Source: a virus
Length of the DNA: 41,411 nucleotides
Virus record (IMG/VR): IMGVR_UViG_3300017708_000870
Span: 1 to 41,411 of that record
Reading direction: 5' to 3' (one strand)
Below the pieces are notes generated by a model that did not search any database, was not told the origin of the DNA, and saw nothing but the letters and a program-made list of their open reading frames with translations. Shown here piece after piece: positions 2 through 41,411 of this stretch. The translations under genes and the position numbers were made by a program. The stretch's first letter is position 1. Every line of letters starts with the position of its first letter.

Positions 2-625
2 CCGTTTATTCTTGTGACAACTTCCGAGGAAGGATTCTGGAACAATCACCCGAGCGATGTTCCGTGGGGAGACACTTGGTCCACCGCAGAGCAAACACCA
101 TCGGGTCCGCTTCGCTACTTCTTAGGACAAGATCCACGACAGGATTTTGATTCACACTTTCCAATGGGTGATCTTCCCGATTGTGTCGGTGTGCCTGGTC
201 TTGGTGACAACTACCCGTGTGCTGGTGTCGCAACTCCATACCGATTGAACCAAACCAACAATCTGATCTTGGGTGAAAACAATGATATTTTTACATTGTC
301 AAGACTTATTGTTGTTGTAAATTCAAATGCTGAAAATGCAAAGATCGGCGAGAATCCTTTTATGCAACTTACCACAAAGGGAAATGTAAGATTCAAGGGT
401 GGTGTAAACCTGAATAAGTATGACGGGTTACCACACTGGAATTATTACGAAACCATTGGTTACTTCGGGGATGCTACTCAGTCCACAATCTGGGAAGACT
501 TGAACTATGATGACAGAGTAGATTTTGGAGACTTATTGATGGTTCTAAATGACGCAGAAAGATACGACGATGTGTTCGATGCAATCTTGACAATCCTCGC
601 CGCTTGGGGAAATTCAAATTCATAA
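2..625 (+). CDS. Secreted-type protein with C-terminal dockerin-like repeat (5' partial)
   Basis: The reading frame is open to the window's left edge, so the gene is probably cut off there; a GTG at 14 is the first internal start-like codon and has no convincing ribosome site. The C-terminal part carries a 12-residue calcium loop of the form DxNxDxxxxxxD (DLNYDDRVDFGD, codons 497-532), then a helix, and a final segment ending ILAAWGN. That layout is typical of dockerin-like repeats at the ends of secreted Planctomycetota proteins. The upstream part is rich in Asn, Gly and aromatic residues and matches no family I recognise. It precedes another secreted-type gene and a tail gene, so it could be a virion surface protein or a cargo protein taken from the host; function is unknown. 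Confidence 0.6.
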   Translation, partial: PFILVTTSEEGFWNNHPSDVPWGDTWSTAEQTPSGPLRYFLGQDPRQDFDSHFPMGDLPDCVGVPGLGDNYPCAGVATPYRLNQTNNLILGENNDIFTLSRLIVVVNSNAENAKIGENPFMQLTTKGNVRFKGGVNLNKYDGLPHWNYYETIGYFGDATQSTIWEDLNYDDRVDFGDLLMVLNDAERYDDVFDAILTILAAWGNSNS

Positions 626-628
626 ATA
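621..628 (+). promoter_or_regulatory. Possible T4-type late promoter (CATAAATA)
   Basis: CATAAATA matches the T4 late promoter octamer TATAAATA at 7 of 8 positions. It overlaps the stop codon of the upstream gene and lies 29 bp before the next ATG, with a ribosome site (GGAG, 647-650) in between. The phage encodes its own gp55 late sigma factor, which recognises this kind of element in T4. The match is short, so chance cannot be excluded. Confidence 0.35.
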
Positions 629-657: not shown

Positions 658-1281
658 ATGTTGAGAACACTTGCACTTGCTATAACTACAACCGCTGTGG
701 CGGATCTTGCTGGAATCGGAAATCCTGAATATTACCAACAGTCGGACGTATACGGAGAGCGGTGGAACGCTTTTGTTGAAACTGCTGTTTATACCGAAGA
801 TGATCAACAAGATTTTGTAGGTGTTCCAGACAATGCAATTCTCATAACATATACTCTACATAACAACATAGAATCAGAATCAGCGATTGAAGACTTTGAT
901 ATTTTCACAGGAATAAAAACAGATGAACTATCAGTTTTATCAATTCCAGGCTATCTAACATCTCCCATCGTAGATCAACTCGACGCACTCTATAACAATC
1001 CAGATTATGTTAATTTTGCATATGAGACAGGACTCTATAACTGGGACTGGGGGACTGAGGGAAACTTGGAATCCTCGGGTTTGATGCCTGGGGAGTTCGC
1101 TACGATGTTCGTGATCGCATACGCAGATTCTTGGATCGAAAGCCCTGGCATAATTCAAGGTGAAAGTGATGCAGGTATTTTCTTCACAGTTGTTCCAGAA
1201 TTTTATGTTATACCAACACCAAGCGTTTTATCACTCATGGGTGTTGCGATACTTGCCCGTAGTAGAAAACGATATACATAA
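658..1281 (+). CDS. Exported protein with PEP-CTERM-like sorting tail
   Basis: 207 aa. The start is set by GGAG at 647-650, seven bases before the ATG. The N-terminus (LRTLALAITTTAVADLAG) looks like a signal peptide. The C-terminus has the three parts of a PEP-CTERM/exosortase signal: a Pro-rich PTPS motif (residues 186-189), a hydrophobic helix (LSLMGVAILA, 191-200) and a basic end (RSRKR). In bacteria such tails direct proteins to exosortase for surface anchoring or release; the exact Planctomycetota form often reads PxPxxLxLLGLxGL plus RRRR. The middle (residues 25-180) is acidic, with no domain I recognise. Finding this in a T4-like phage, next to tail genes, is unusual; it may be a host gene acquired for surface display. 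The export role is inferred from the termini only. Confidence 0.65.
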   Translation: MLRTLALAITTTAVADLAGIGNPEYYQQSDVYGERWNAFVETAVYTEDDQQDFVGVPDNAILITYTLHNNIESESAIEDFDIFTGIKTDELSVLSIPGYLTSPIVDQLDALYNNPDYVNFAYETGLYNWDWGTEGNLESSGLMPGEFATMFVIAYADSWIESPGIIQGESDAGIFFTVVPEFYVIPTPSVLSLMGVAILARSRKRYT

Positions 1282-1284
1282 TGT

Positions 1285-1830
1285 ATGGGATACACTGCTG
1301 AGAACCAAATATCGATTTCAAACGCATTACAGGCACAGGCTTTAAGACAACCTGAGACTAACAATTATCTCATGAATACTTCGTTTAGGTTTACGTTAAG
1401 TAAAACACCGAAGATAACCTATTTTTGTCAGAGGGCGAATATACCTGATTTTACATTAGATGGAATCGAACAGCCTGTTAGATTCGGTGCTAGAGTTTTC
1501 AAAGCAGGAGACAAGTACAGTTACGGCGACCTACAGATTTCCTTTTTGGTCGATGAAAATTTAGAGAATTATTTAGAGATGCATAACTGGTTGAGAAGTT
1601 GTGCTAATTTAAAGGATGTGACAGAGTTTGAAGGTAGGGAAAGGTTTACAACTACGGCAGATTTGCATGTTTTGAATAGTAACTCAAGGGTTATAAAAAC
1701 TGTGAGATTTACGGATGTCATACCCACGAGTTTAGGTTCAGTGAATTTTGATTCTACGATTACTGACATTGAGCCTATTATAGTGGACGCAACATTCAAG
1801 TTCACACACTACGATATTCTGCCTGAGTAA
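1285..1830 (+). CDS. Tail-tube-like structural protein
   Basis: 181 aa. The pattern NTSFRFTLSKTP, then YFCQRANIP, GDKYSYGDLQISFLVDENL and NYLEMHNWL is that of small tail proteins common in marine T4-like myoviruses, which I associate with the tail-tube/baseplate-tube fold (gp19/gp54-like). In that fold, beta-strands stack into rings forming the inner tube of a contractile tail. The start ATG lies just after the upstream stop with only a weak ribosome site. It is directly followed by the uvsY leader. The structural assignment is by recalled family pattern; which T4 gene it equals is uncertain, and a baseplate or tail-completion role is also possible. Confidence 0.5.
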   Translation: MGYTAENQISISNALQAQALRQPETNNYLMNTSFRFTLSKTPKITYFCQRANIPDFTLDGIEQPVRFGARVFKAGDKYSYGDLQISFLVDENLENYLEMHNWLRSCANLKDVTEFEGRERFTTTADLHVLNSNSRVIKTVRFTDVIPTSLGSVNFDSTITDIEPIIVDATFKFTHYDILPE

Positions 1831-2313: not shown

Positions 2314-3799
2314 TCTTATTACAATCAAACCATACGATAGTGTATATGTTAAAGTTGACTGTGAGAGATCTATAGCAAAAGAACTCTCAGACTTTTTTAC
2401 ATTCAAAGTTCCTAACTACCAATATACACCAGCCTATAAGAATAAAGTATGGGATGGTCAAATAAGACTATACAATATGCACTCGCAAACGTTTTACCGA
2501 GGTCTAATCGATTACCTCGCTGACTTTGCAAACGAAAGAAACTACACTCTTAAGAACGACTTAGAAATGGTATCACATACTATTTCTGACGATAGTTTGC
2601 TTAAATACATGCGTGATCATCTGAAACTTCCTTTTGACCCATACGAGCATCAAGTTTCTGCAATTAAGCACGCTCTAGAGCAGCAGAGAACCCTTCTCGT
2701 CTCTCCTACGGGGTCTGGTAAGTCTTTAATCATTTACACATTACTTCGTTATTATCTAAATAAACTTCCTCCCGACAAGAAAATTTTAATCATTGTACCT
2801 ACAACCTCTTTAGTTTCTCAAATGATGAGTGACTTTCGAGACTACGCAGAAAAGTGTGATTGGTCAGTGGATGACAATTGCCATTACATTATGTCTGGTC
2901 AAGAAAAAACCACGGACAAAAGAATAGTGATATCCACATGGCAGAGTATACACAGAGAACATGAAAAGTTTTTCAAGGACTTTCATTGTGTGTTCGGTGA
3001 TGAGTGTCACTTATTTAAGGCTAAATCTCTCACGGGTATCATGACTAAATTGAAAAACTGCGATCACAGAATAGGTACTACAGGAACGCTGGACGGATCG
3101 CAAACTCATAAACTTGTCATTGAAGGTTTATTTGGGTTGGTCAAGAATGTTACAACGACAAAAAAACTAATGGATAAAGATCTGTTGTCTAGACTAAAAA
3201 TCGATTGTCTTCTTTTGGGATATAATAAAGAATCTTGCAAAGAAAATAAACGAGCGAAATATATTGATGAGATCAAGTGGATAATCAACAATGAGCCGAG
3301 AAACAAATTTATCACGGATCTATCATGTAAACTAAAAGGCAATACTCTACTACTTTTCAATTATGTAAAAGAACACGGTGTTCCACTACATGAAATGATT
3401 TTAGATAAATGTCCAGATAAAGACATTCATTTCATACATGGGGGAACTGATGTAACCCAAAGAGAAAATATTAGAAAACTTGTAGATAATGTAGATCGTG
3501 ATTCGATACTCATAGCGTCATATGGTACATGCTCTACTGGTATCAACATTAAAAATATCAACAATATTATTTTTGCCTCTCCGTCAAGATCTGTTATTCG
3601 TGTTTTGCAATCTATTGGTAGAGGACTAAGAAAATCGGATGTAAAAGACAGGGTAAAACTTTTTGATATTAGCGATGATCTAAGACATCTGAAATACGTT
3701 AACCACACGTACCGTCACATGCAGGAGAGAGTGAAGATATATAATAAGGAGAAGTTTGATTTTACACATAAGAATCTAAACTTGGAAGGTAACACATGA
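2303..3799 (+). CDS. uvsW: UvsW DNA/RNA-DNA helicase
   Basis: 498 aa from the ATG at 2303, close to the T4 UvsW length. It is a superfamily 2 helicase that unwinds branched DNA and R-loops and shifts replication from origin-driven to recombination-driven. Visible motifs: Walker A SPTGSGKS (134-141), DECH box (233-236), TGT (260-262) and motif VI QSIGRGLRKS (436-445). The N-terminal about 100 residues fit the DNA-binding domain of the family. A TTG at 2282 would add seven residues but lies deep in uvsY; the ATG is preferred. Its stop overlaps the next start (ATGA). Confidence 0.93.
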   Translation: MVTNLITIKPYDSVYVKVDCERSIAKELSDFFTFKVPNYQYTPAYKNKVWDGQIRLYNMHSQTFYRGLIDYLADFANERNYTLKNDLEMVSHTISDDSLLKYMRDHLKLPFDPYEHQVSAIKHALEQQRTLLVSPTGSGKSLIIYTLLRYYLNKLPPDKKILIIVPTTSLVSQMMSDFRDYAEKCDWSVDDNCHYIMSGQEKTTDKRIVISTWQSIHREHEKFFKDFHCVFGDECHLFKAKSLTGIMTKLKNCDHRIGTTGTLDGSQTHKLVIEGLFGLVKNVTTTKKLMDKDLLSRLKIDCLLLGYNKESCKENKRAKYIDEIKWIINNEPRNKFITDLSCKLKGNTLLLFNYVKEHGVPLHEMILDKCPDKDIHFIHGGTDVTQRENIRKLVDNVDRDSILIASYGTCSTGINIKNINNIIFASPSRSVIRVLQSIGRGLRKSDVKDRVKLFDISDDLRHLKYVNHTYRHMQERVKIYNKEKFDFTHKNLNLEGNT

Positions 3800-4515
3800 G
3801 TAAAGACTACCGATTATTAAAACTAAAAAGTGGTGAAGAAATTGTGACCAGAATTGTGGGTCAGAAAAAAGATAGCGTTACAGTGCAAAGACCTTATGAA
3901 TTTTTAAACATGATGGTCGCTGATCCATTAGGTCGTAAGAAAGAAGTTACAGTTCTAAAGGACTGGCTTCGTCATAGTAATCAGATTAAAACCGTAATCC
4001 CAAAAGATTTTATTGTTAGTTTTCTGACACCAGATGTTGAAGTAATTAAATTATATGATGACTCTAAAGACAGAGATGATAAAATTCAAATGCAGCATGA
4101 TGCAATTGATAACATGACAGAAGAGGAAGCACAAGCGGCTCTTGAAGAGAAGATCGCTCAGATGTTAAGATCCATGAAAGATAAGTTCGATGATGATTAC
4201 TCAGAGGATAACATGGATAATATTGATCCAATTAATGGCGTACCTAATAAAGAATCTGAAAAAGAATTTGTAGTCATGAACATGATCTTTCCGCCTAGCA
4301 TCATTAAAAAATTCATCGAAGAAGGTTTTTTAGATCCAGAAGATATGATGGATCTCATGGATGATGATGTGGGTATGAGAACGTTCACCGAAACAGACAC
4401 AAGTGACCAAATTGATCGTGAAGATTTTGGAAAAGAGTGGACTGATTGGTCTTGGAATCCTAATGATTTACTAGACTCTAAAGACTCTAAAGATTCAGAA
4501 GAACAAGATGAATAA
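3796..4515 (+). CDS. Conserved T4-like phage protein with Sm/Lsm-like N-terminus
   Basis: 239 aa of unknown function. The N-terminal about 95 residues begin YRLLKLKSGEEIVTRIVG, followed by strands and VIKLYD, which is the layout of the small Sm/Lsm-like beta-barrel seen in hypothetical proteins beside uvsW in marine T4-like phages. The rest (100-239) is strongly acidic, with EEEAQAALEEKIAQM as a possible helix and repeated DSKDSKDSEE at the end. An RNA-related role is a guess from the fold pattern only. It overlaps uvsW by four bases, so it is probably co-transcribed and translationally coupled. Confidence 0.65.
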   Translation: MSKDYRLLKLKSGEEIVTRIVGQKKDSVTVQRPYEFLNMMVADPLGRKKEVTVLKDWLRHSNQIKTVIPKDFIVSFLTPDVEVIKLYDDSKDRDDKIQMQHDAIDNMTEEEAQAALEEKIAQMLRSMKDKFDDDYSEDNMDNIDPINGVPNKESEKEFVVMNMIFPPSIIKKFIEEGFLDPEDMMDLMDDDVGMRTFTETDTSDQIDREDFGKEWTDWSWNPNDLLDSKDSKDSEEQDE

Positions 4516-9977: not shown

Positions 9978-11072
9978 ATGAGATTAGTAAAATTAGACTA
10001 CATTTGGTTGGATGGTAATGATGCTGTTGGATTAAGATCCAAGTCAAGAAACGTTAACATTCCAACAGAAAACCCTCAAGTTCCACCTAGCATCGACAAC
10101 GTTGTTGAGCATGCACCAGAGTGGTCATATGATGGATCAAGCACCAATCAAGCAGTCACCGAATCTAGTGATCTTGTGCTGAAACCAGTAAAGGTTTACA
10201 AGAATCCTTTTGTTGCACCCAATGCACAGATTCCTGCGTTCCTCGTTTTATGTGAGGTATATGACTTAGATGGTAATCCACACGAAACAAACAATCGCTC
10301 GACTCTTCGAGATGCGTTTGCAAACAATAAAGATTCACACAACACTATCTTCTCTGTAGAGCAAGAGTATGTTCTTTGGAATCCAAAAGAGAACTGGCCT
10401 GCTGAGTGGGGTGACCACGGTAACGAAGTCGCACCACAAGGAAATTATTACTGTGGTGTCGGTGGTGATCTTGCACCACTTCGTTTTGTTGTTGAGCAAC
10501 ACGCTCAGGCTTGTGTGCAAACAGGATTGTTCTACGAAGGTAGTAACGCAGAGGTTATGCTGTCTCAGTGGGAGTATCAGTTGGGACCAATGGATGCTAT
10601 TGATGCAGCAGACAGTCTGTGGATCTCGCGTTATATCTTGCAACGTGTTGCAGAGAGTCGCGGTATTGGTGTGAACTATGATCCTAAACCAGTCGAAGGT
10701 GATTGGAATGGATCGGGCGCACATATCAACTTCTCGACAGATGCTATGAGAAACGGAGATATGTCACACATGTACACTGTATGTGAAAGATTGTCTGAGG
10801 GACATGCTGAACTCATGTCAAGTGGTGCTTATGGTGTAGGTAACGAAAGGAGACTTACGGGTAAGCACGAAACATCATCTATTGAAGAGTTTTCATATGG
10901 GGTAAGTGATCGATCTGCATCCATTCGTATTCCACCAGTTACGGTGAAGAATGACGGTGCAGGTTATTTGGAAGATCGTAGACCATCAGCGAACATGGAC
11001 CCATACCTTGCTTACGCTGCAATTCTTAACACTATTAAGGTCGAGGAAGATGCCGAAGTTATTACCGCTTAA
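9978..11072 (+). CDS. glnII: Type II glutamine synthetase
   Basis: 364 aa, the full length of the eukaryote-type (GSII) family. It makes glutamine from glutamate, ammonia and ATP in the cytoplasm. Family signatures in order: WSYDGSSTNQA (49-59), SVEQEYVLW with E128 and E130 for metal binding, YCGVG (158-162), EVMLSQWEYQLGP (192-204), NGSGAHINFST (244-254), GNERRLTGKHETSS (288-301), SIRIP (315-319) and EDRRPSANMDPY (332-343). All the active-site regions look intact, so the enzyme is predicted to work. A ribosome site AAAGG precedes the ATG. It lies between DNA-metabolism genes, not in a nitrogen operon. Phage-carried GSII is rare in my knowledge; it may supply glutamine for nucleotides and amino sugars. 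Confidence 0.93.
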   Translation: MRLVKLDYIWLDGNDAVGLRSKSRNVNIPTENPQVPPSIDNVVEHAPEWSYDGSSTNQAVTESSDLVLKPVKVYKNPFVAPNAQIPAFLVLCEVYDLDGNPHETNNRSTLRDAFANNKDSHNTIFSVEQEYVLWNPKENWPAEWGDHGNEVAPQGNYYCGVGGDLAPLRFVVEQHAQACVQTGLFYEGSNAEVMLSQWEYQLGPMDAIDAADSLWISRYILQRVAESRGIGVNYDPKPVEGDWNGSGAHINFSTDAMRNGDMSHMYTVCERLSEGHAELMSSGAYGVGNERRLTGKHETSSIEEFSYGVSDRSASIRIPPVTVKNDGAGYLEDRRPSANMDPYLAYAAILNTIKVEEDAEVITA

Positions 11073-20784: not shown

Positions 20785-21363
20785 ATGTTAACAGTATTTG
20801 AAGGACTTGAAGAGAAGTTGTCTGAAGCAGTTGAGACTGAAGAGTGGAAAACACTTCAGAAACAATTCAATGAGGCAGAAGTAATTTATATGATCGGTAA
20901 CGGTGGTAACATGGCGGTTGCAAGTCACGGTGCTGCTGACGCCACAAGACTCACTAATAAGAAGGTACACTGCTTAGATAGTCAGTCGCATCTTACTTCA
21001 ATTGCAAATGATCATGGTTACGAAAATATTTTTGAACGCTGGTTAGAGTCATACGCTGACCTAGACAAGAAAACTCTAGTGTTAGGATACTCTGGTTCTG
21101 GAAACTCCGCTAATGTGTTGGGTGCTTTGCGTTGGTCCGACGATCAGGGTTTCGACACAACAATTATCACAGGTGTGAAGTCTGTAAGGTTAGATAGACA
21201 ATCAATCAACGAAGTATGTTTTGATAATATCTTCTTTCATTCACACGAGATTCTGTCAGTCATGTCGTTTTATGAGTTGATTCATGGAGCGGGTCATGCA
21301 TGTCCAACAATCAAAGCAGAAAACGAAAGAAAGTACGGAACGAAAGGAACAAAGCATGTCTAA
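20785..21363 (+). CDS. SIS-domain sugar isomerase (GmhA-like)
   Basis: 192 aa, the length of GmhA. GmhA turns sedoheptulose-7-phosphate into heptose-7-phosphate, the first step toward ADP/GDP-heptose. Phosphosugar site patterns are present: YMIGNGGNMAVASHGAADAT (compare GNGGSAADAQH), SHLTSIANDHGYE and LGYSGSGNSANV. The usual Ser after GNGG is Asn, and the final part ends HGAGHACPTI. No other heptose gene (GmhB, HldE) was seen nearby, so the true substrate may be a different sugar phosphate. Strong AAAGGAG ribosome site and a possible promoter directly upstream. Confidence 0.82.
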   Translation: MLTVFEGLEEKLSEAVETEEWKTLQKQFNEAEVIYMIGNGGNMAVASHGAADATRLTNKKVHCLDSQSHLTSIANDHGYENIFERWLESYADLDKKTLVLGYSGSGNSANVLGALRWSDDQGFDTTIITGVKSVRLDRQSINEVCFDNIFFHSHEILSVMSFYELIHGAGHACPTIKAENERKYGTKGTKHV

Positions 21364-30862: not shown

Positions 30863-31681
30863 ATGCGAACAAAAATTATTGCCGAAATTGGTATCAATCA
30901 CAATGGTTCTGTGGAAATCGCCAAGTCTCTCATCGACGTTGCGAGTGTTGCTGGATGTGATTATGTAAAGTTTCAAAAGAGAAATCCAGACGTATGTGTT
31001 CCCGAAGAACAAAAACATAAAATAAAAGAAACCCCGTGGGGTAAGATGTCATATCTCACTTATAAAAAGAGGACAGAGTTCAACAAAGAGCAGTATGTAG
31101 AATTATTCGATTACTGTAAGCATCGTGGAATTGAAATGTTTGCCTCTGTTTGGGATAGAGACTCGGTTGACTTCATGCGTCACTTTACAAAAGTCATGAA
31201 GATCCCATCTGCATTGATTACTGATTTAGACTTAGTGCAATATGCTCGCTTCCATGCAGATTTTTTGATGATATCTACTGGTATGAGTACCGAAGATGAA
31301 ATTACTAGATGTGTAGAGGTTGGTAACCCAAGTTTGATTTTCCACACTAACTCATCATACCCCTCACCAGTAGAAGATTTAAATCTAAATTATATCGATC
31401 ACTTGAAAAGAACCTATCCAGAGAAAGAGATAGGTTACAGCGGTCACGAGTTTGGTTTGGTCCCTAGTTATACCGCTGTTGTCAAAGGTGCAACGTGGAT
31501 TGAAAGACACATTACACTCGACAGAACAATGTGGGGTTCTGATCAGATGGCATCTGTTGAACCGCACGGACTTATGAAGTTGGTAAAAGATATACGAAGC
31601 ATTGAAGCATCATTGGGTCAGGGAGGACGTAGAGAAGTTTTTGAATCTGAGTTATCAAAAAGAAAATCATTAAGAGGTTAA
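30863..31681 (+). CDS. neuB: NeuB-like N-acetylneuraminate (nonulosonic acid) synthase
   Basis: 272 aa. NeuB condenses a hexosamine with PEP to make a nine-carbon acid. The TIM-barrel is recognisable: IIAEIGINHNGSVEIAKSLI, DYVKFQKRNPDV, then FASVWDRDSVDF, KIPSALITDLDL, MISTGMSTEDEI, IFHTNSSYPSP, IGYSGHEFGL and WIERHITLDRTMWGSDQ. The C-terminal SAF (antifreeze-like) domain present in typical NeuB (about 345 aa) is absent. The SAF domain normally helps form the active site in the dimer, so activity must rely on the barrel or a partner. It directly precedes neuA. Confidence 0.9.
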   Translation: MRTKIIAEIGINHNGSVEIAKSLIDVASVAGCDYVKFQKRNPDVCVPEEQKHKIKETPWGKMSYLTYKKRTEFNKEQYVELFDYCKHRGIEMFASVWDRDSVDFMRHFTKVMKIPSALITDLDLVQYARFHADFLMISTGMSTEDEITRCVEVGNPSLIFHTNSSYPSPVEDLNLNYIDHLKRTYPEKEIGYSGHEFGLVPSYTAVVKGATWIERHITLDRTMWGSDQMASVEPHGLMKLVKDIRSIEASLGQGGRREVFESELSKRKSLRG

Positions 31682-31682
31682 T

Positions 31683-32318
31683 ATGAAAACAGTTGCATTG
31701 ATACCCGCGAGGGGTGGTAGCAAAGGTGTTCAGGATAAAAACGTTAGACTTCTGAACGACGAACCTTTAATTTTTTATACGATTACAGCGGCTAAATACT
31801 CTAATGTAGATGAGGTTTGGGTAAGCACCGATAGTAGTGTGATTAAGTCCGCTGCGTTAAGAGCAGGAGCAAAGGTCATTGACCGACCGAAAGAACTAGC
31901 AGGAGATAAAAGTCGAAGCGAAGAGGCTTTACTTCACTTCTGCGATAATGTTGAGGTTGATCGTTTAGTGTTTATACAAGCAACATCACCCCTATTGCAA
32001 CCAGATCACATAAATGGTGGTCTTGAAATGATGAATGAGTATGACTCTGTTTTTTCTGCTTTTAAAGAACATTGGTTGCCACGATGGACAATGGATGTAA
32101 AACCACAAAACTTTCATTCAGTAAACAGTCGTGGTATGAGACAAGACTATAAAGATGTATGGGTAGAGAACGGTGCTTTTTACATTACTAGTAAAGATCG
32201 ACTGGTCGAGTACAAAAGTAGACTAAGTGGAAACATAGGTGTGTATGAAATGAAACCACACCAAAGTGTCCAGATTGATACCGAACATGACTTTGAATTT
32301 TGTGAGAAACTATTATGA
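31683..32318 (+). CDS. neuA: NeuA-like CMP-sialic acid synthetase
   Basis: 211 aa. Activates the acid made by NeuB with CTP. Typical motifs: ALIPARGGSKGVQDKNVRLL, VWVSTDSSVIKSAA, LVFIQATSPLLQPDHI, and a closing SVQIDTEHDFEFCE. Length fits short bacterial NeuA. Follows neuB after one base, and its stop overlaps the HAD gene (ATGA). Confidence 0.92.
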   Translation: MKTVALIPARGGSKGVQDKNVRLLNDEPLIFYTITAAKYSNVDEVWVSTDSSVIKSAALRAGAKVIDRPKELAGDKSRSEEALLHFCDNVEVDRLVFIQATSPLLQPDHINGGLEMMNEYDSVFSAFKEHWLPRWTMDVKPQNFHSVNSRGMRQDYKDVWVENGAFYITSKDRLVEYKSRLSGNIGVYEMKPHQSVQIDTEHDFEFCEKLL

Positions 32319-32632
32319 TATACTGCTTTGACTTAGACGGAACTCTATGCACCCAAAGGGATGGTGATTACGAAAATGCGAAACCTTTCATGGATCGTAT
32401 TAAACATGTAAATAAATTACATAAGGCGGGTCACAAAATTATTATTGAAACTGCAAGGGGTAGTGGTAAAACAAAAGGTAAAGATTGGACTACCATTACT
32501 AACCTACAGTTGTTAGGATGGGGTCTTCTATTTGATGAGTTACGAACGGGTATAAAATTTAGTGCGGACGTTTATGTGGATGATCGCTCTATACACCCAG
32601 AACAGTTTTTTAACCCAGCGGTGAAACAATGA
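32315..32632 (+). CDS. HAD-superfamily sugar phosphatase-like protein
   Basis: 105 aa, a minimal HAD. CFDLDGTLC holds the nucleophile pair D6 and D8; IIIETARGSG is motif II and VYVDDRSIHP the metal-binding motif. Similar small HAD proteins occur in capsule clusters and dephosphorylate sugar phosphates. Between neuA and the 2-epimerase gene, it could act on a nonulosonic acid phosphate, but the pathway here may not need that step. ATGA overlaps on both sides. Confidence 0.8.
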   Translation: MIYCFDLDGTLCTQRDGDYENAKPFMDRIKHVNKLHKAGHKIIIETARGSGKTKGKDWTTITNLQLLGWGLLFDELRTGIKFSADVYVDDRSIHPEQFFNPAVKQ

Positions 32633-33639
32633 TTTTAGTTTGCTTCGGTACACGACCTGAATACATAAAAATTAAACCATTACTCGATAAGTTTGATGGA
32701 GTAGTTGACTATAAAATTTTATTTACAGGTCAACATCAGGATCTTCTCGATGGTGTTCATGCGGATCAACAGTTAGAAATTACAGACGGTGCAAACCGTT
32801 TAGACAGCATCACAGCGTCCGTAATGAACTCTATTGACTTCGAGGGTATAGATCAAGTATTAGTGCAGGGTGATACGGGAACAGCATTTGCAATCGCGTT
32901 GAGTGCCTTCCATCATCGTGTACCGATCATACACCTTGAAGCAGGTATGAGAACTTTCGATAAAGACAATCCATATCCCGAAGAATTCTATAGACAAGCA
33001 ATAACAAAGATTGCAGACATTCATCTTGCACCCAGTGATATCGAAAAGCAGAATTTGATTTACGAAAGATGCGTTCGTGGACCCGTTTTGACTTTTGAGA
33101 ATAAAGGAGATCATAACATCCATGTTGTTGGCAATACAGTCTTAGACAATCTTCGAGATGTGCCTGTATCTTATAACAAAAGGGTATTGATAACTCTACA
33201 CCGCAGAGAGAATCATCATTTGATTGCAGAGTATTTCAAAAGACTTTCGCAGATCGCTGAGGAGAACTCTGATTTAGAGTTTGTTATTCCTTTGCATCCT
33301 AATCCAAATGTACAAAAGCATAGAAATCTTTTAAGAAACATTAAAGTTATTGACCCCCTTCCATATGATGAAATGATTCAAGAAATCGCAAGATGTCGTT
33401 TTATAATTTCAGATAGTGGCGGTATACAAGAAGAGGCTTCTTTCTTACGTAAGAAGGTTATTGTGTGTAGAGAAAAGACTGAGCGAATATCAACAGTCGG
33501 ACTGAATTGTTTCTTATGCTCTCACCCAGCGAAGTTGAGTGACATGGTAAGATCGTTCCGAGACAACTACATAGTGTATAGTGATTGTCCTTATGGTGAT
33601 GGACATGCAAGTGAAAAGATATTGGAGATTTTAAAATGA
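32629..33639 (+). CDS. UDP-N-acetylglucosamine 2-epimerase (WecB/NeuC type)
   Basis: 336 aa. Family motifs: VCFGTRPEYIKIKPLL, LFTGQHQDLLDG, VLVQGDTGTAFAIALSAFH, HLEAGMRTFDKDNPYPEEF, VVGNTVLDNL, LITLHRREN and ISDSGGIQEEASF. It makes UDP-ManNAc (WecB) or ManNAc plus UDP (NeuC); the sequence does not decide which by eye. ManNAc is the precursor for NeuB; the UDP-sugar dehydrogenase at 34786 would alternatively turn UDP-ManNAc into the uronic acid. Confidence 0.9.
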   Translation: MILVCFGTRPEYIKIKPLLDKFDGVVDYKILFTGQHQDLLDGVHADQQLEITDGANRLDSITASVMNSIDFEGIDQVLVQGDTGTAFAIALSAFHHRVPIIHLEAGMRTFDKDNPYPEEFYRQAITKIADIHLAPSDIEKQNLIYERCVRGPVLTFENKGDHNIHVVGNTVLDNLRDVPVSYNKRVLITLHRRENHHLIAEYFKRLSQIAEENSDLEFVIPLHPNPNVQKHRNLLRNIKVIDPLPYDEMIQEIARCRFIISDSGGIQEEASFLRKKVIVCREKTERISTVGLNCFLCSHPAKLSDMVRSFRDNYIVYSDCPYGDGHASEKILEILK

Positions 33640-33893: not shown

Positions 33894-34789
33894 TGAAACA
33901 TATTGTCACAGGTGGAGCGGGATTCATCGGATCTCATATTGTTGATCAATTGGTGTCTGAAGGACACGAAGTGATTGTAATTGATGATGAGTCATCAGAG
34001 TCTCACGATCAGTTTTATTATAATGAGTCTGCAACTTATCGTAAGTATGATATTGCAGTTCATAAATATTGGTTCAATAAATTATTCGAGGGAGTTGATA
34101 CGGTCTTTCACTGTGCAGCAGAATCTCGAATACAACCTGCTATAGAAAACCCCTTGAAGGCTGTTATGACTAATGCATACGGAACCTGTTCTGTACTGCA
34201 AGCAGCAAGAGAGGCTGGTGTACGTCGTGTAGTTTACTCTTCAACATCTTCTGCGTATGGGTTTAACGAAACACCAAACGTTGAAACACAACCAGATGAT
34301 TGTCTCAATCCCTACTCTGTATCAAAAGTATCAGGTGAAAAACTCTGCAAGATGTATTCAGACTTATTTGGTCTTGAGACTGTGGTGTTTCGATACTTTA
34401 ATGTTTATGGGGAAAGACAACCACTGCGAGGTCAGTACGCACCAGTGATCGGTAAATTTATAGAGCAGCACAAAAGAGGAGATCCCCTCACAATTGTTCC
34501 AGACGGAGAGCAGCGTAGGGACTTCACGCATGTGTCTGATATAGTGAGAGCGAACATATTAGCATCGACTGTGGAGTTAGAATCTTATGGTGGTGTGTTC
34601 AACTTGGGAACAGGAAAGAACTATTCGATAAACGAACTTGCTGCGATGATATCAGATAATATTAAAATGATTGATCCTAGACCAGGCGAGACTAGGATAA
34701 GTAAGGCAAACATAAACAAAAGCATGGAGACTTTAAACTGGACTCCAAATGTGAATCTTGAGGAATGGATCAAAAAGGCTATATCATGA
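33893..34789 (+). CDS. NAD-dependent sugar-nucleotide epimerase (extended SDR)
   Basis: 298 aa. GalE/WbpP-like SDR: IVTGGAGFIGSHIVDQL (NAD loop), FHCAAESRIQPAIENPL, VVYSSTSSAYG, the catalytic NPYSVSKVSGE (Y-x-x-x-K), FRYFNVYGERQ, and VPDGEQRRDFTHVSDIV. Probably a 4-epimerase of UDP-GlcNAc or UDP-Glc or a related sugar. It supplies donor sugars for the many transferases. Followed at once by the dehydrogenase gene. Confidence 0.9.
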   Translation: MKHIVTGGAGFIGSHIVDQLVSEGHEVIVIDDESSESHDQFYYNESATYRKYDIAVHKYWFNKLFEGVDTVFHCAAESRIQPAIENPLKAVMTNAYGTCSVLQAAREAGVRRVVYSSTSSAYGFNETPNVETQPDDCLNPYSVSKVSGEKLCKMYSDLFGLETVVFRYFNVYGERQPLRGQYAPVIGKFIEQHKRGDPLTIVPDGEQRRDFTHVSDIVRANILASTVELESYGGVFNLGTGKNYSINELAAMISDNIKMIDPRPGETRISKANINKSMETLNWTPNVNLEEWIKKAIS

Positions 34790-35661
34790 AAATAGGTGTA
34801 ATTGGAAATGGGTTTGTTGGTAACGCAGTTGCAAGTGGTTTTATCCCACTCAGAGAATCATTGCTCGGCAGTACATTATTAGAAGTCTTTGTTTATGACA
34901 TAGATAAAAGCAAATCACCAAATACTCTTGAAGAAACTTTACAGTGTAATTTTGTCTTTGTGTGTTTACCAACACCAATGACTGATGCAGAGGGAGGAAG
35001 ATGTAATCTTTCTTTGCTCGAAAAATTCTTTGATGATGTGTCAAAAGTTGAAACAGAAGCAGTCTTCATTATTAAGTCTACTGTTCCTGTAGGGACTACC
35101 GATAGAATGTGTGAACTTTACCCGCACATGAAGATTGCTCATAACCCAGAGTTTTTGACTGCTGCAAACGCAGTGCATGACTTTGTAAATGCAGACCGAC
35201 ACGTTGTGGGGGGAGAACCAGATGTTGTGAGTCATGTTGAAACATTGTATAAAACATACTTCCCCAACACAAAAATTTTCACCATGAAGTCAAAAGAATC
35301 TGAGTGTGTGAAATATTTTGCTAATTGTTTTCTCGCAGCAAAAGTTATGGTCTTCAACGAAATGAAAATGTTATGCAATAATATTGATGTTGATTATAAT
35401 AAAATTCTAAGAGGTGTTGGTTCAGATCATAGGATTGGTCATAGTCATACCTTTGTGCCTGGTCCTGACGGTGACTATGGATTTGGTGGGACATGTTTTC
35501 CGAAGGATATCAATTCCCTTATAAATATAATGATCGACAATGATGTTGATCCTATCGTGCTGAAATCTGTTTGGGAACAGAATAAAAATTATAGAGAAAA
35601 TTGGGACTGGTCAAATAATCAGTCTGCCGTTCTTAAACAAAGTGAAGAATATCGGGGTTAA
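34786..35661 (+). CDS. UDP-sugar dehydrogenase, short form
   Basis: 291 aa from ATG 34786. NAD loop IGVIGNGFVGNAVASG, VFVCLPTPM, IIKSTVPVGT, IAHNPEFLTAANA, then KYFANCFLAAKVMVFNEMK and the catalytic cysteine in GFGGTCFPKDINSL. These are the first two domains of the UDP-glucose/UDP-ManNAc dehydrogenase family; the C-terminal UDP-binding domain (usually taking the protein to about 390-440 aa) is missing. Oxidises a UDP-sugar to an acid if active. Overlaps the epimerase by four bases. Confidence 0.85.
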   Translation: MKIGVIGNGFVGNAVASGFIPLRESLLGSTLLEVFVYDIDKSKSPNTLEETLQCNFVFVCLPTPMTDAEGGRCNLSLLEKFFDDVSKVETEAVFIIKSTVPVGTTDRMCELYPHMKIAHNPEFLTAANAVHDFVNADRHVVGGEPDVVSHVETLYKTYFPNTKIFTMKSKESECVKYFANCFLAAKVMVFNEMKMLCNNIDVDYNKILRGVGSDHRIGHSHTFVPGPDGDYGFGGTCFPKDINSLINIMIDNDVDPIVLKSVWEQNKNYRENWDWSNNQSAVLKQSEEYRG

Positions 35662-37450: not shown

Positions 37451-37575
37451 AAGTAGAGATTCGTAAAGAAGAATTTGTTTTAGTGTCTGAACTCAAACGA
37501 ATGAATGGATTAACTCCAGTGTTGGAGATTACTGTAAAACGTAAAATTAGTAATAACAGATATAGGATCTCATGA
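37447..37575 (+). CDS. Very small protein (42 aa) of unknown function
   Basis: A short open frame fits exactly between its neighbours: ATG in the upstream stop and TGA overlapping the next ATG. The peptide (KVEIRKEEFVLVSELKRMNG, then TPVLEITVKRKISNNRYRIS) is basic and beta-rich. The coupled overlaps favour a real gene. Confidence 0.55.
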   Translation: MKVEIRKEEFVLVSELKRMNGLTPVLEITVKRKISNNRYRIS

Positions 37576-38732
37576 TTGAACGGTTTTCTACATTCAAAAC
37601 CCAAAACTTTAGAGATGGTAATGCGAACATAGTCTCAAACAATTATCCTTTGGGTACACGTTTTATAATTGTTAACGAACAATCTACGTTTGAACACGAA
37701 ACAGAATTTACACTTACTGAATTAAGCGAAGATGCAGAAGTTATAAAATTTGGCAAGAGTGAGCATTCTTTGTCATTTGTTAATCTATTAAGTAATGTCG
37801 GAAAACAATACAAGGTGTATGGAAATGCGTCATTACTTAATAGTATGTTTGATGTTGTCGAAGAAAAGATTATCGAAGAAAAAACTATCGTACCTATTAA
37901 AGATGAAGTTAAAGTTGATGGTAAAAAAGGTGAACGTGGTCTTCGTGGTTTGATTGGTGAACAGGGTCCAGCAGGTTCGATAGGTATGGTCGGACCAAAG
38001 GGAGATCGTGGCGAACATGGTTTGCAAGGTATTCAGGGTGAACAAGGTACACAAGGTGAACGTGGACTCATCGGTGAGCAAGGTGAACAGGGTACACAAG
38101 GTATTCAAGGTGAGCGTGGAGAGCAGGGAGAAAAAGGTGACCTCGGTGAGCAAGGTATTCAAGGTTTCCGTGGTGAGCAAGGACCGAAAGGCGACCAAGG
38201 CGAAAAAGGAAATCGCGGAGAGCAAGGCATTCAAGGTGAAAGAGGTTTGCTTGGAGAACAGGGAAGACAAGGTATTCAAGGCGAACGTGGGACAGATGGT
38301 TTACAGGGGGTAAAAGGTGATCAAGGTGAACGAGGCGAACAAGGTCAAGTCGGTCCACAAGGTTTGCAGGGTCAACAAGGTCCGAAAGGTGACAGAGGAG
38401 AAAGAGGTAAAAAGGGAGACAAGGGAGAAAAAGGAGATCCCGCACCTCCATTCAAAATCCGTGAGGGTAATGGCTTAAAAATAAACGAACAAAGAAATGA
38501 ATTATGGTTAGATCCTAAAACATTTCCTCCTGTTCCCATAGGTCAACTAGGTGGTGCTGTCATCGGTGGTGGTGGTAGTAATACAGGTGTAAAGCAAAAC
38601 AATAAGAAGATTATGGATACAGCGAGATTTATAAACTTCGATAGCGGATTCACTGCTGAAAGAAGAGGTGGTGAAGGAAAAGGGACCGCTACAATTTCGA
38701 TAAATAACATAGACGGTGGTACTTTCGTTTAA
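37572..38732 (+). CDS. Collagen-like fibre protein
   Basis: 386 aa. The N-terminal about 116 residues form a non-repeat domain (attachment to the virion is likely), followed by an unbroken Gly-X-Y region from G117 to G288 (58 triplets), then a C-terminal head (about 290-386) with GQLGGAVIGGGGS and a final MDTARFINFDSGF part. Frequent triplets are GEQ, GIQ, GER and GPK. Collagen-like fibres form trimers and are common in phage tails. Ten Gly-X-Lys triplets put lysine in the Y position, where collagen lysines are hydroxylated and glycosylated in other systems. It starts at the preceding stop. Confidence 0.92.
   Translation: MIERFSTFKTQNFRDGNANIVSNNYPLGTRFIIVNEQSTFEHETEFTLTELSEDAEVIKFGKSEHSLSFVNLLSNVGKQYKVYGNASLLNSMFDVVEEKIIEEKTIVPIKDEVKVDGKKGERGLRGLIGEQGPAGSIGMVGPKGDRGEHGLQGIQGEQGTQGERGLIGEQGEQGTQGIQGERGEQGEKGDLGEQGIQGFRGEQGPKGDQGEKGNRGEQGIQGERGLLGEQGRQGIQGERGTDGLQGVKGDQGERGEQGQVGPQGLQGQQGPKGDRGERGKKGDKGEKGDPAPPFKIREGNGLKINEQRNELWLDPKTFPPVPIGQLGGAVIGGGGSNTGVKQNNKKIMDTARFINFDSGFTAERRGGEGKGTATISINNIDGGTFV
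37920..38441 (+). repeat. Gly-X-Y collagen repeat (58 triplets)
   Basis: Each codon triplet starts with a glycine codon from residue 117 to 288 without a break. The DNA therefore has a 9-bp period, with recurring GGTGAACAAGGT and GGTATTCAAGGT units. Long open frames on the other strand and in other phases here are by-products of this period. Confidence 0.95.
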
Positions 38733-38741
38733 GGATAACAT

Positions 38742-40475
38742 ATGGCAACTCATATTCAAATTCATAGATCAGCAATAGCAGGAGCAACCCCAAGTGTCGA
38801 AACGATGCTAGAGGGTGAAGTTGCTGTCAATTTGACAGACAAGAAGTTATTCGTAAAAGGTGCAACGGGTGAACTTATAACTCTTGCGGAACCACAGACC
38901 CACGCAAATACAAACCACGTTACCTCGTTTAATGGACAAACTGGAGTTGTTACATTAAATGATTTTGTGACGACATTCAACGGATCTACTGGTGCGATTC
39001 AAGGAATGTCATCATTCAACGGACTAACTGGAGATGTTACATCGGGTATATCCTTTAGCATTCATGGTATCACATTCTCTGATAACACATTCCAGAGATC
39101 CGCATCACGAAATGGATTCAGATATGTGACAGGTTCAGAGTCTGACGCTGCTAGTACCGCTGGACGTTTAAATGTAAACATGGATATATTGGGTGAAATT
39201 GATCTCATACAGGCTAACACGACTGACCTCGATGGAAATAATCTCACACCATTGTATACTTTGGTCCAACAAAGAGGTGGAATCGTATCTGTATTCGATG
39301 GTGATTTTAGCAATAAGTTTATCGCTATAATAAACCCAGACCCAGATTTTGATGGATCTTTTAGTTCAGGTGAGAATGAAACAAGCACAACCTCGACTCT
39401 CTTCAAACACTCTACTTCATCTACTTCACCACCAAATGTATCTACGGGTGGAATTATAGACAATGGATCTACAGATCTTGCTGCAAGTTTTGATCGGGAT
39501 GTATACGTTCAAATTATTCCAAACACAAATACATTTATTACAGAATTTAATGGATCGACTGGTGAGATCCTTGGTGAAGGTACATCAAATGCTAGAATTG
39601 GTATCGTAACTCATACATCACAATTCCCTGTGGGTGGACTGTCCGCAGACGGAATGATTGAAGTTTACAATTTTGGTATCTCTGGACCTAATGGCATTAC
39701 ATTCGACAATGGATTGAGATTAGACCCTGAAGGTGTTGGTCAATTAACTATCGTTCCAAAATCTGGTAATGCAACATTAGAGTTGGGATCTTCGACAGGA
39801 TTCATACAATCTCTAAATCAAGAACCGTCTGTTAAGATCGAGTCTGGTAATAAAATAACTATAGGTGATCCAGAGGAAGCGAGTGCAGGAACAAAACTTA
39901 TAGTTGATTCTAATACCGAGAAGGTTACAGTAGAAGCATCTGATGGACTTGAGGTAGATAGTCTAACTGGAATAATATCAAACAGTAATATTACTGTTGC
40001 GTCAAGCATTATCCATCAAGGTGACACCAATACATCGATTGAGTTTACTCCAGACACAATCAAAGTCGTTCAAGGTGGTGATCGACATCAACTCCAAAGA
40101 CAAAAAGATACCGCTCAGTTTGCAATCGTTTCAAGCAGTGCGGTTGACTCAGGAAACACTCTTGGACATAAGGTTCAAGGACTGAAACATATTCCTTACG
40201 ATGCTACGTTTACAAATGTATTTGTTCGTGGTTCAACACTCGGTGGTCTAGAACTCGCAATCAATAAAGCAGGTGGTGATCCGCTCGGACACGCAGCGAA
40301 TGGTGCGACAGAATTAATCACCGCAAATATACCTATCGGTTCACAGGGTGTTTCGTTCAGCAGTGGTTTCACTGCGTCGGGTGTGTCTGCGAACGACTTT
40401 ATTTACTTGAGAGTGAAAAGCAACAACGCTGGAGCGACAGCAATCCAAGCGTTAGTTACTTATACGAGGGACTGA
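38742..40475 (+). CDS. Tail fibre protein with FNGxTG repeats
   Basis: 577 aa. N-terminal ATHIQIHRSAIAGATP, then LEGEVAVNLTDKKLFVKGATG, is the common start of fibre proteins that bind the virion in marine phages. Repeats FNGQTG (63-68), FNGSTG (79-84), FNGLTG (92-97) and FNGSTG (269-274) follow, a motif known in T4-like marine fibre proteins. The rest is beta-rich with repeats of Gly, Ser and Thr and ends in a small domain (IQALVTYTRD). Host recognition is the likely role. Confidence 0.82.
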   Translation: MATHIQIHRSAIAGATPSVETMLEGEVAVNLTDKKLFVKGATGELITLAEPQTHANTNHVTSFNGQTGVVTLNDFVTTFNGSTGAIQGMSSFNGLTGDVTSGISFSIHGITFSDNTFQRSASRNGFRYVTGSESDAASTAGRLNVNMDILGEIDLIQANTTDLDGNNLTPLYTLVQQRGGIVSVFDGDFSNKFIAIINPDPDFDGSFSSGENETSTTSTLFKHSTSSTSPPNVSTGGIIDNGSTDLAASFDRDVYVQIIPNTNTFITEFNGSTGEILGEGTSNARIGIVTHTSQFPVGGLSADGMIEVYNFGISGPNGITFDNGLRLDPEGVGQLTIVPKSGNATLELGSSTGFIQSLNQEPSVKIESGNKITIGDPEEASAGTKLIVDSNTEKVTVEASDGLEVDSLTGIISNSNITVASSIIHQGDTNTSIEFTPDTIKVVQGGDRHQLQRQKDTAQFAIVSSSAVDSGNTLGHKVQGLKHIPYDATFTNVFVRGSTLGGLELAINKAGGDPLGHAANGATELITANIPIGSQGVSFSSGFTASGVSANDFIYLRVKSNNAGATAIQALVTYTRD

Positions 40476-40476
40476 T

Positions 40477-41411
40477 ATGGCACTAACTGATGTTTTTTAT
40501 TCACCATCGGGAGCAGGTTCACAAGATGGATCAAACGCTGCGAACGCAAAAGCAGCGATCACGGGAACTTCGTGGACAACTGCTATCGAAGGGGAAACGC
40601 GACAAAATACTCGTTGGATTTTTCTTGCGGGAACTTATACTTGTAATGAGGAGTTAATCCCAACATCTACCAACCCGAACGCAGACAATCCACACTTCTG
40701 GGCGGGTGCAGATGCAGACGGTAATCTTCTTGAACCAAAGTGGTCTGACGATTCACAGGCACATCTTGACACCACCGACTATCCAAAGATTATCCGAACA
40801 AACAACGGTGGGATTTATCAAAGTGCAGGAACATCTACACTTTACAAATGTTTGTATTTTGAAAACACAAGTTCTAGTTTCAATCAGGGTGGTGTCCTCA
40901 ACTCCACCTTCAGTGAAGCGATTCGACAATTATTCGTTGGTATTTTTATGCGTGCGCCTGCGAATGCAAGTGCGAGCAATAACAACTCAAGGGTTCACAA
41001 CAACTTTGGTGCAAAAAGTATCATGTGTGAGTTTGTTCATCTCGGAACAAAGTTAGACACAATTGTTCAAAATGGTGGCACTAATCAAGGCTCTTTGTTC
41101 AACTGTCGCATTTATGGTGCAGGAACATCTGGTAGCGGAAACGGAAACGGTGTAAAATGCGATACCAGCACACCACAGATTATCAACTGTGTGTTTGACA
41201 ATGTTCACGGTGACGGAATCTCTGACCAAGGAACATCAGAAAACAAAAATGGAAACTTTACTAACAATACGATAACACGATGCGGAGCGAATGGTATTGA
41301 CTCCGCTGGTGCTGCACAAACTCAAGGTGGTGTTCAAATTGAAAATAATATTATTTTTGATGTTGGTGGACACGCAGTGGTCGCAAATGCAAATGATGAC
41401 GATAGACTTCT
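40477..41411 (+). CDS. Right-handed beta-helix fibre or depolymerase-like protein (3' partial)
   Basis: An uninterrupted frame from the ATG at 40477 to the window's right edge (311 codons, no stop). N-terminus ALTDVFYSPSGAGSQDGSNA followed by TRWIFLAGTYTCNEEL fits the start of pectate-lyase-type beta-helix proteins. Recurrent rungs such as GSLFNCRIYGAG, PQIINCVFDNVHGDGI, NGNFTNNTITRCGANGI and GGVQIENNIIFDVGG show the stacked coil. Such proteins in phages are fibres or polysaccharide-degrading spikes. Catalytic residues cannot be judged from this part. Confidence 0.85.
   Translation, partial: MALTDVFYSPSGAGSQDGSNAANAKAAITGTSWTTAIEGETRQNTRWIFLAGTYTCNEELIPTSTNPNADNPHFWAGADADGNLLEPKWSDDSQAHLDTTDYPKIIRTNNGGIYQSAGTSTLYKCLYFENTSSSFNQGGVLNSTFSEAIRQLFVGIFMRAPANASASNNNSRVHNNFGAKSIMCEFVHLGTKLDTIVQNGGTNQGSLFNCRIYGAGTSGSGNGNGVKCDTSTPQIINCVFDNVHGDGISDQGTSENKNGNFTNNTITRCGANGIDSAGAAQTQGGVQIENNIIFDVGGHAVVANANDDDRL

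Follow-up and report, generated by a model that had tools for sequence, protein, structure and literature searches.

T5 Llp and T1/phi80 Cor are small phage-encoded lipoproteins that are sent to the outer surface and are thought to block receptors. A different surface address is used in PEP-CTERM/exosortase (EpsH) sorting (Haft et al. 2006, PMC1569441; models PF07589, TIGR02595 and PF09721), whose substrates carry a signal peptide, a Pro-x-Pro motif, one hydrophobic helix and a basic end; recognition by the exosortase at the PxP motif is the mechanism proposed for them (PMC1569441), and a connection with exopolysaccharide and the formation of flocs has been described (PMC1569441, PMC9012009). 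The open-licence papers found on PEP-CTERM/exosortase and phage apparently describe no phage-encoded substrates. The gene described here, pep, lies at the left end of a 41,411-nt stretch of viral DNA (the window, meaning the whole stretch analysed), and its product P0001 has the layout of such a substrate. It resembles Llp and Cor as a phage-encoded protein with a predicted outer-surface address, and differs from these lipoproteins in that an exosortase tag would serve as the address, together with partners bearing dockerin-like tails. We consider it likely that P0001 is a phage-specific secreted protein with a Phycisphaerae-type PEP-CTERM tail, encoded last in a cassette of doc genes; it may remodel or mask the surface of the infected cell. 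The features of the locus are as follows.

2..625, + strand: doc2 gene, truncated at the left end of the window (full gene in contig L001 at 3464-4300, 278 aa)
482..622, + strand: dockerin-like tail of doc2, STIWEDLNYDDRVDFGDLLMVL...ILTILAAWGNSNS, from the tail alignment
621..628, + strand: late-promoter-like element CATAAATA, 30-37 nt ahead of the pep start codon and overlapping the stop of doc2
658..1281, + strand: pep gene, protein P0001, from ORF and translation (207 aa, ATG start)
658..702, + strand: signal-peptide-like N-terminus of pep, MLRTLALAITTTAVA, from the sequence, with the cut predicted before D16
703..1206, + strand: pep core domain, a beta-sandwich predicted by AlphaFold2 (residues 25-181)
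1207..1278, + strand: pep C-terminal sorting tail, from the host-tail HMM
1285..1830, + strand: gp19-type tail tube gene, flanking the cassette directly on the right (tail tube family phrog_45, E 1.4e-36)

A ribosome-binding site (GGAG, 647-650) precedes pep. By inspection, P0001 begins with MLR, followed by the hydrophobic stretch TLALAITTTAVA and the A-x-A cleavage site AVA before D, from which the mature protein is predicted to begin DLAG. The A-x-A or an A-x-G before D is retained among the pep relatives, and the combination of a basic start, a hydrophobic stretch and A-x-A before D was seen in the window protein and nearly all of these relatives. The AlphaFold2 model of P0001 (16-row alignment, mean pLDDT 69.6) places helices at 2-13 and 188-203 on either side of a beta core at 25-181, the first helix coinciding with the N-terminal signal peptide expected of a PEP-CTERM protein. 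The C-terminus, VIPTPSVLSLMGVAILARSRKRYT, consists of VIPTPS, the hydrophobic helix VLSLMGVAILA (1225-1257) and the basic RSRKR (1258-1272), and therefore contains Pro-x-Pro, a single hydrophobic helix and a terminal basic cluster (VIPTPS-VLSLMGVAILA-RSRKRYT). Sequence, a host-tail HMM and the structural model thus confirm the signal-peptide-like start and the PTPS, hydrophobic helix and RSRKR end that the first-pass annotation had read here. As in most PEP-CTERM proteins, the core is without known homologue. Unlike them, pep is phage-encoded, and its family and cassette are spread among phages. The canonical Glu of Pro-Glu-Pro is missing, being T in the window and A or S in the relatives; the candidate Phycisphaerae hosts likewise have A or T at this position, so that Pro-Thr-Pro or Pro-Ala-Pro is common to both.

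Searches of P0001 against Pfam (including PF07589), NCBIfam and PHROGs returned no matches, and the protein lies below the curated cut-offs of both PF07589 and TIGR02595. A TIGR02595 search of the window record was also empty, a result that is uninformative because the control genomes were silent as well. The pep relatives scored 8-18.7 bits on PF07589, several of them at 15-18.7, and none reached the curated cut-off of 20.7. The first-pass annotation had proposed a search with PEP-CTERM HMMs; the expected signal is accordingly seen, below threshold, in the relatives and not in the window protein itself. Since the Glu is missing and the cut-offs are not reached, we describe pep as a variant of Phycisphaerae type and do not count it as an ordinary PEP-CTERM family member. 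Many Phycisphaerae host tails also fall under the PF07589 cut-off, and because of this weakness of the generic model a lineage-specific HMM was trained on host sequences only, namely 17 tails taken from three Phycisphaerae genomes. This model gave 21.7 bits on the window tail, a comparison with Phycisphaerae proteins that bears out the earlier reading, and 14.5-35.9 bits on 31 of 31 phage tails tested; the host tail L074, IIPTPSALALFGLAGLGGARRRRRN, is a nearly identical string to the pep tail. The result bears directly on whether P0001 is an ordinary phage protein that ends by accident in a hydrophobic and basic stretch. The missing score on generic PEP-CTERM models would be expected of such a protein, but none of 20,000 shuffled versions of the window tail attained 21.7 bits (maximum 12.8), 1 of 20,000 block-wise shuffles that kept the order of Pro, hydrophobic and basic parts did so, and the next-best of the 176 stop-to-stop frames of the window scored 0.8 bits. 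In addition, the tail is retained in every pep relative in which the C-terminus is present, and the partner doc genes bear a second host-type tail. Chance resemblance is thus refuted for the family as a whole, and for the window protein we regard it as extremely improbable.

The phage itself is T4-like, as the first-pass annotation had supposed: PHROGs matches include a gp19-type tail tube protein, SbcC/D-like proteins, a clamp, a clamp loader and a translation repressor, and a gp23-type major head protein is encoded in contig L001 of the same phage (E 1.5e-139). The gene order in L001, where the pep protein is 100% identical, is the gp23-type head protein, doc1 (360 aa), doc2, pep and gp19; in the window, pep is accordingly flanked by the truncated doc2 on the left and the gp19-type gene on the right. 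Scans of viral contigs gave about 30 relatives of pep at 42-100% identity, so homologues in other phage contigs, for which the earlier annotation had advised a search, are plentiful. The PxP-hydrophobic-basic layout is kept in all relatives with a C-terminus present, down to 42% identity, with both tail prolines nearly invariant, and diverged relatives carry textbook Phycisphaerae tails (L101, EIPAPGTLTLLGLSIIGNRSRRRR; L110, VPVPAPGALVLGGLTILTGGRRRRS). The same annotation had held that plain tail-protein homologues lacking a PEP-CTERM score and exported relatives would speak against its reading; instead, the relatives score on PEP-CTERM models, none of them is a tail protein and other secreted genes adjoin. 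A tblastn search for pep in named phage genomes gave just two matches at chance level. Whole-protein profiles of the phage families match Phycisphaerae class genomes at their C-terminal part only, and no host homologue of the pep core was found in the genome contigs or the Phycisphaerae class sample. Because of these two results, the tags look host-derived or host-adapted and the cores phage-specific.

A comparison of pep between contigs L007 and L009 indicates that core and tag have separate histories. The two genes have 2 differences in the first 524 nt, whereas from nt 525 onward most third positions differ; identity is 98% over the first 558 nt, and 60% in the tail, 61% downstream and 56% upstream. 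The near-identical island (L007 7034-7557, L009 341-864) takes in the signal peptide and the greater part of the core in phages that are otherwise diverged, and ends just upstream of the sorting tail. Between L002 and L009, dN is 0.008 and dS 0.17 in the core, against 0.37 and 1.1 in the tail. Fast evolution of the tail instead of recombination was considered and rejected, since silent differences jump too, from 11 of 186 third positions to 16 of 25; this pattern argues for exchange of the core and not for relaxed selection on the tail. The breakpoint lies about a dozen codons ahead of the PxP motif, which means that it was the core that moved, the tail remaining with the backbone. Judged from these alignments, core DNA has moved between phages, each of which keeps its own tag. 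A related case is doc2, which is 93% identical in DNA (780/837 nt) between L110 (1921-2757) and L001 (3464-4300), despite pep being only 44% identical and the genome contexts differing.

The cassette consists of one to three secreted-type doc genes followed by pep as the last gene, and the doc genes were directly upstream of pep on the same strand in every contig read. doc2 is a paralogue of doc1; the N-terminus of doc1 is signal-peptide-like, and that of doc2 is short and hydrophobic, without positive charges. The doc proteins have GR[LM]TP[FY]G in common and most end in CPSDLNEDGxVGFxDLLQVL...WGDC. Since searches of Pfam and NCBIfam, including the dockerin models PF00404 and NF041540, matched no doc protein, the term dockerin-like is used here solely for the alignment with host tails. 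A scan of the doc tail alignment against 84,980 species genomes gave 30 loci, with full-length matches in Phycisphaerales SS_bin_71, Phycisphaeraceae ACE_PLA6, Phycisphaerae MED835 and 6_bin.32, a bacterium without phylum name; matches of Bacteroidetes type spanned the first half only. By this alignment, the doc tail at full length appears almost only in Phycisphaerae. Its matches to two-repeat Phycisphaerae tails range from E 2e-10 to 1e-5 (tblastn), the host tails being two tandem repeats and the phage doc tail the first repeat plus a shortened second. The closest described group is that of GC-type dockerin domain-anchored proteins (NF041540), with CPxDLNxDGxVGFxDLLxVL...WGxC common to doc and the two-repeat Phycisphaerae tails; the host protein L033 scores weakly on this model, whereas phage doc, whose second repeat is without the loop, is unscored.

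The position of the cassette varies between phages. It lies between the gp23- and gp19-type genes in the window phage, before gp25- and gp6-type baseplate wedge genes in L130, L138 and L140, and before an Hsp20 gene in L110 and L141. The fibre-like gene at 40477-41409 of the window is 70% identical to the gene preceding the L140 cassette. A second cassette past the right end of the window, which this gene had suggested, is not claimed because a single pep gene was found in each of the 12 viral records checked. doc1 has spread more widely, with 59 viral loci at 65-100% identity, most of them on contigs without detectable T4 genes of the window phage; where such contigs were tested, their terminase, head-tail adaptor and head proteins belonged to different families, as would suit phages of the podovirus type. 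Non-T4 doc1 often adjoins an unrelated protein of about 150 aa (L083 9053-9517, L122 8990-9493, L134 2124-2591, L118 7125-7547 and L100 2172-2594) with a CPxC start, an internal hydrophobic stretch and a tail such as LPETGGLALGLLLLAKPNRKR, the tail types being LPETG..., VPASG... and an RKR end; two members tested against PHROGs gave no match. Of 145 genes lying no more than two genes away from doc1, 22 have a C-terminus that resembles a sorting tail, against 2 of 333 genes elsewhere (p = 2e-10, a value that is too small because the counted sequences are related). The doc partners, this wider spread and the swapping of cores go beyond what the first-pass annotation had noted.

To our knowledge, few phages are known for the class Phycisphaerae. 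The host of these T4-like phages is probably a member of this class of planctomycete bacteria, as the tail matches and the distribution of the full-length doc tail suggest, and the planctomycete-like host of the first-pass annotation is to that extent supported. All three Phycisphaerae genomes with the doc tail encode exosortase (PF09721; E 4e-44, 3e-42 and 9e-41), which was not found in two other genomes checked; PEP-CTERM proteins above cut-off were likewise present in the three exosortase-bearing genomes and numbered 0 in the two others. Among 120 sampled Phycisphaerae genomes, 117 have an exosortase, so that the enzyme predicted from the tail occurs in the expected host group. Against this host assignment, the GC content of the phages, about 41%, is far from the 56-70% at the nearest host loci.

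The pep protein is very probably a substrate of the host sorting system, and its export by the host exosortase is a well-supported prediction. In the proposed mechanism, the cassette proteins would be made late in the infected Phycisphaerae cell and cross the inner membrane via Sec. The C-terminal helix would then hold pep in the inner membrane, where the host exosortase would recognise it at the PxP motif and cut; pep would end up anchored to the exopolysaccharide or outer surface. The doc proteins would travel by the host's own pathway for dockerin-like tails. The surface would thereby be remodelled or masked in the late phase, for example against superinfection or the loss of progeny on debris receptors. 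Of the purposes considered for the cassette, masking of the surface or a block of superinfection is the likeliest, and we put it forward tentatively; a superinfection block and altered adhesion had been suggested in the first-pass annotation. In most loci the pep ATG is preceded, at a distance of about 30-45 nt, by a T4-late-promoter-like element with TAAATA, which would fit late expression; we limit this to an inference because a plain count shows no enrichment of the motif in the window and because, in some loci, the element shares bases with the stop of the gene before pep.

Structure prediction gave little guidance on the role of the core, which may lie in surface masking, lysis or adhesion. 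Fold searches with P0001 (Foldseek/VIA-align) returned Ig-like sandwich domains of many kinds, with a best Z of 8.4. Such matches reflect no more than a common arrangement and point to no function; the rows for pore-forming toxins and adhesins were discounted as functional evidence. The model of doc1 was poor and its fold matches were below Z 4. Cohesins appeared weakly, at rank 37 in one search and at rank 1 with Z 3.9 in another, and for this reason a cohesin-dockerin pairing of pep with doc stays a guess.

Three other roles would also agree with parts of these data. Lysis or egress factors, working in the periplasm or outer membrane like spanins adapted to a planctomycete envelope, would use the tail solely as a membrane anchor. 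In favour of this role are the neighbourhood of late structural genes and conservation across unrelated phages, as is expected of a core function; in such phages doc1 adjoins small proteins of lipoprotein-like or membrane type, several of which end in a PEP-CTERM-like tail. However, no endolysin or holin was identified adjoining the cassette, a plain membrane anchor needs neither a PxP motif nor an exosortase-type tail, and the doc proteins bear another, different host-type tag; we therefore regard this role as unlikely. A comparably low probability is given to an adhesion or aggregation factor, by which the anchored protein would alter the sticking of cells to particles or neighbours and bring more contact with new hosts. 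The connection of PEP-CTERM proteins with exopolysaccharide and flocs cited above (PMC1569441, PMC9012009), the surface-sugar gene cluster of the same phage and a weak likeness of the P0001 fold to Gram-positive adhesin domains point in this direction, the last of these being offset by the common-arrangement level of all fold matches.

Ig-like folds are common among phage decoration proteins, and P0001 could in principle be a virion component that decorates the head or tail, its hydrophobic ends being structural and not export signals. The place of pep between gp23-type and gp19-type genes, or elsewhere before gp25-type baseplate genes, would suit this role as well as the fold does. Nevertheless, the signal peptide has a cleavage site, the tail matches host sorting tails, the doc partners have host-type tails, the cassette also sits in other places, including beside an Hsp20 gene, and P0001 matched no PHROGs structural family, so that a virion role seems improbable.

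If the predicted sorting of pep to the host surface is correct, lytic phages exploit the host exosortase to display their own proteins on the cell surface, which would offer a direct handle on the role of exosortase sorting in planctomycetes and a sequence signature that may assign uncultured phages to Phycisphaerae. It would also be a natural case of cargo and address tag evolving apart, useful for studying tag specificity. A more speculative extension, which we hold to be rather doubtful, is that the cassette is a portable surface-delivery module common to phages of Phycisphaerae, in which phage-specific effector cores are swapped by recombination just before the tail, each phage keeps its own tag for the exosortase of its host and the surface-anchored pep protein holds the doc proteins; exosortase sorting would then be a host system hijacked by viruses for exchangeable cargo.

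Several other genes of the window deserve mention. A GlnII-type glutamine synthetase, unusual in a phage, is encoded at 9978-11072 (NF041605, E 3e-103, under the curated cut-off). A large surface-sugar cluster that includes glycosyltransferase-like genes by inspection extends over 15670-36985 and may be part of the same surface-remodelling programme as the cassette. The following genes belong to it.

20785-21363: GmhA-like isomerase
30863-31681: NeuB/PseI-like
31683-32318: PseF-like cytidylyltransferase
32629-33639: WecB-type epimerase
34765-35661: nucleotide-sugar dehydrogenase

Near the right end of the window, a protein with collagen-like G-X-X repeats is encoded at 37572-38732, followed by fibre-like genes at 38742-41409.
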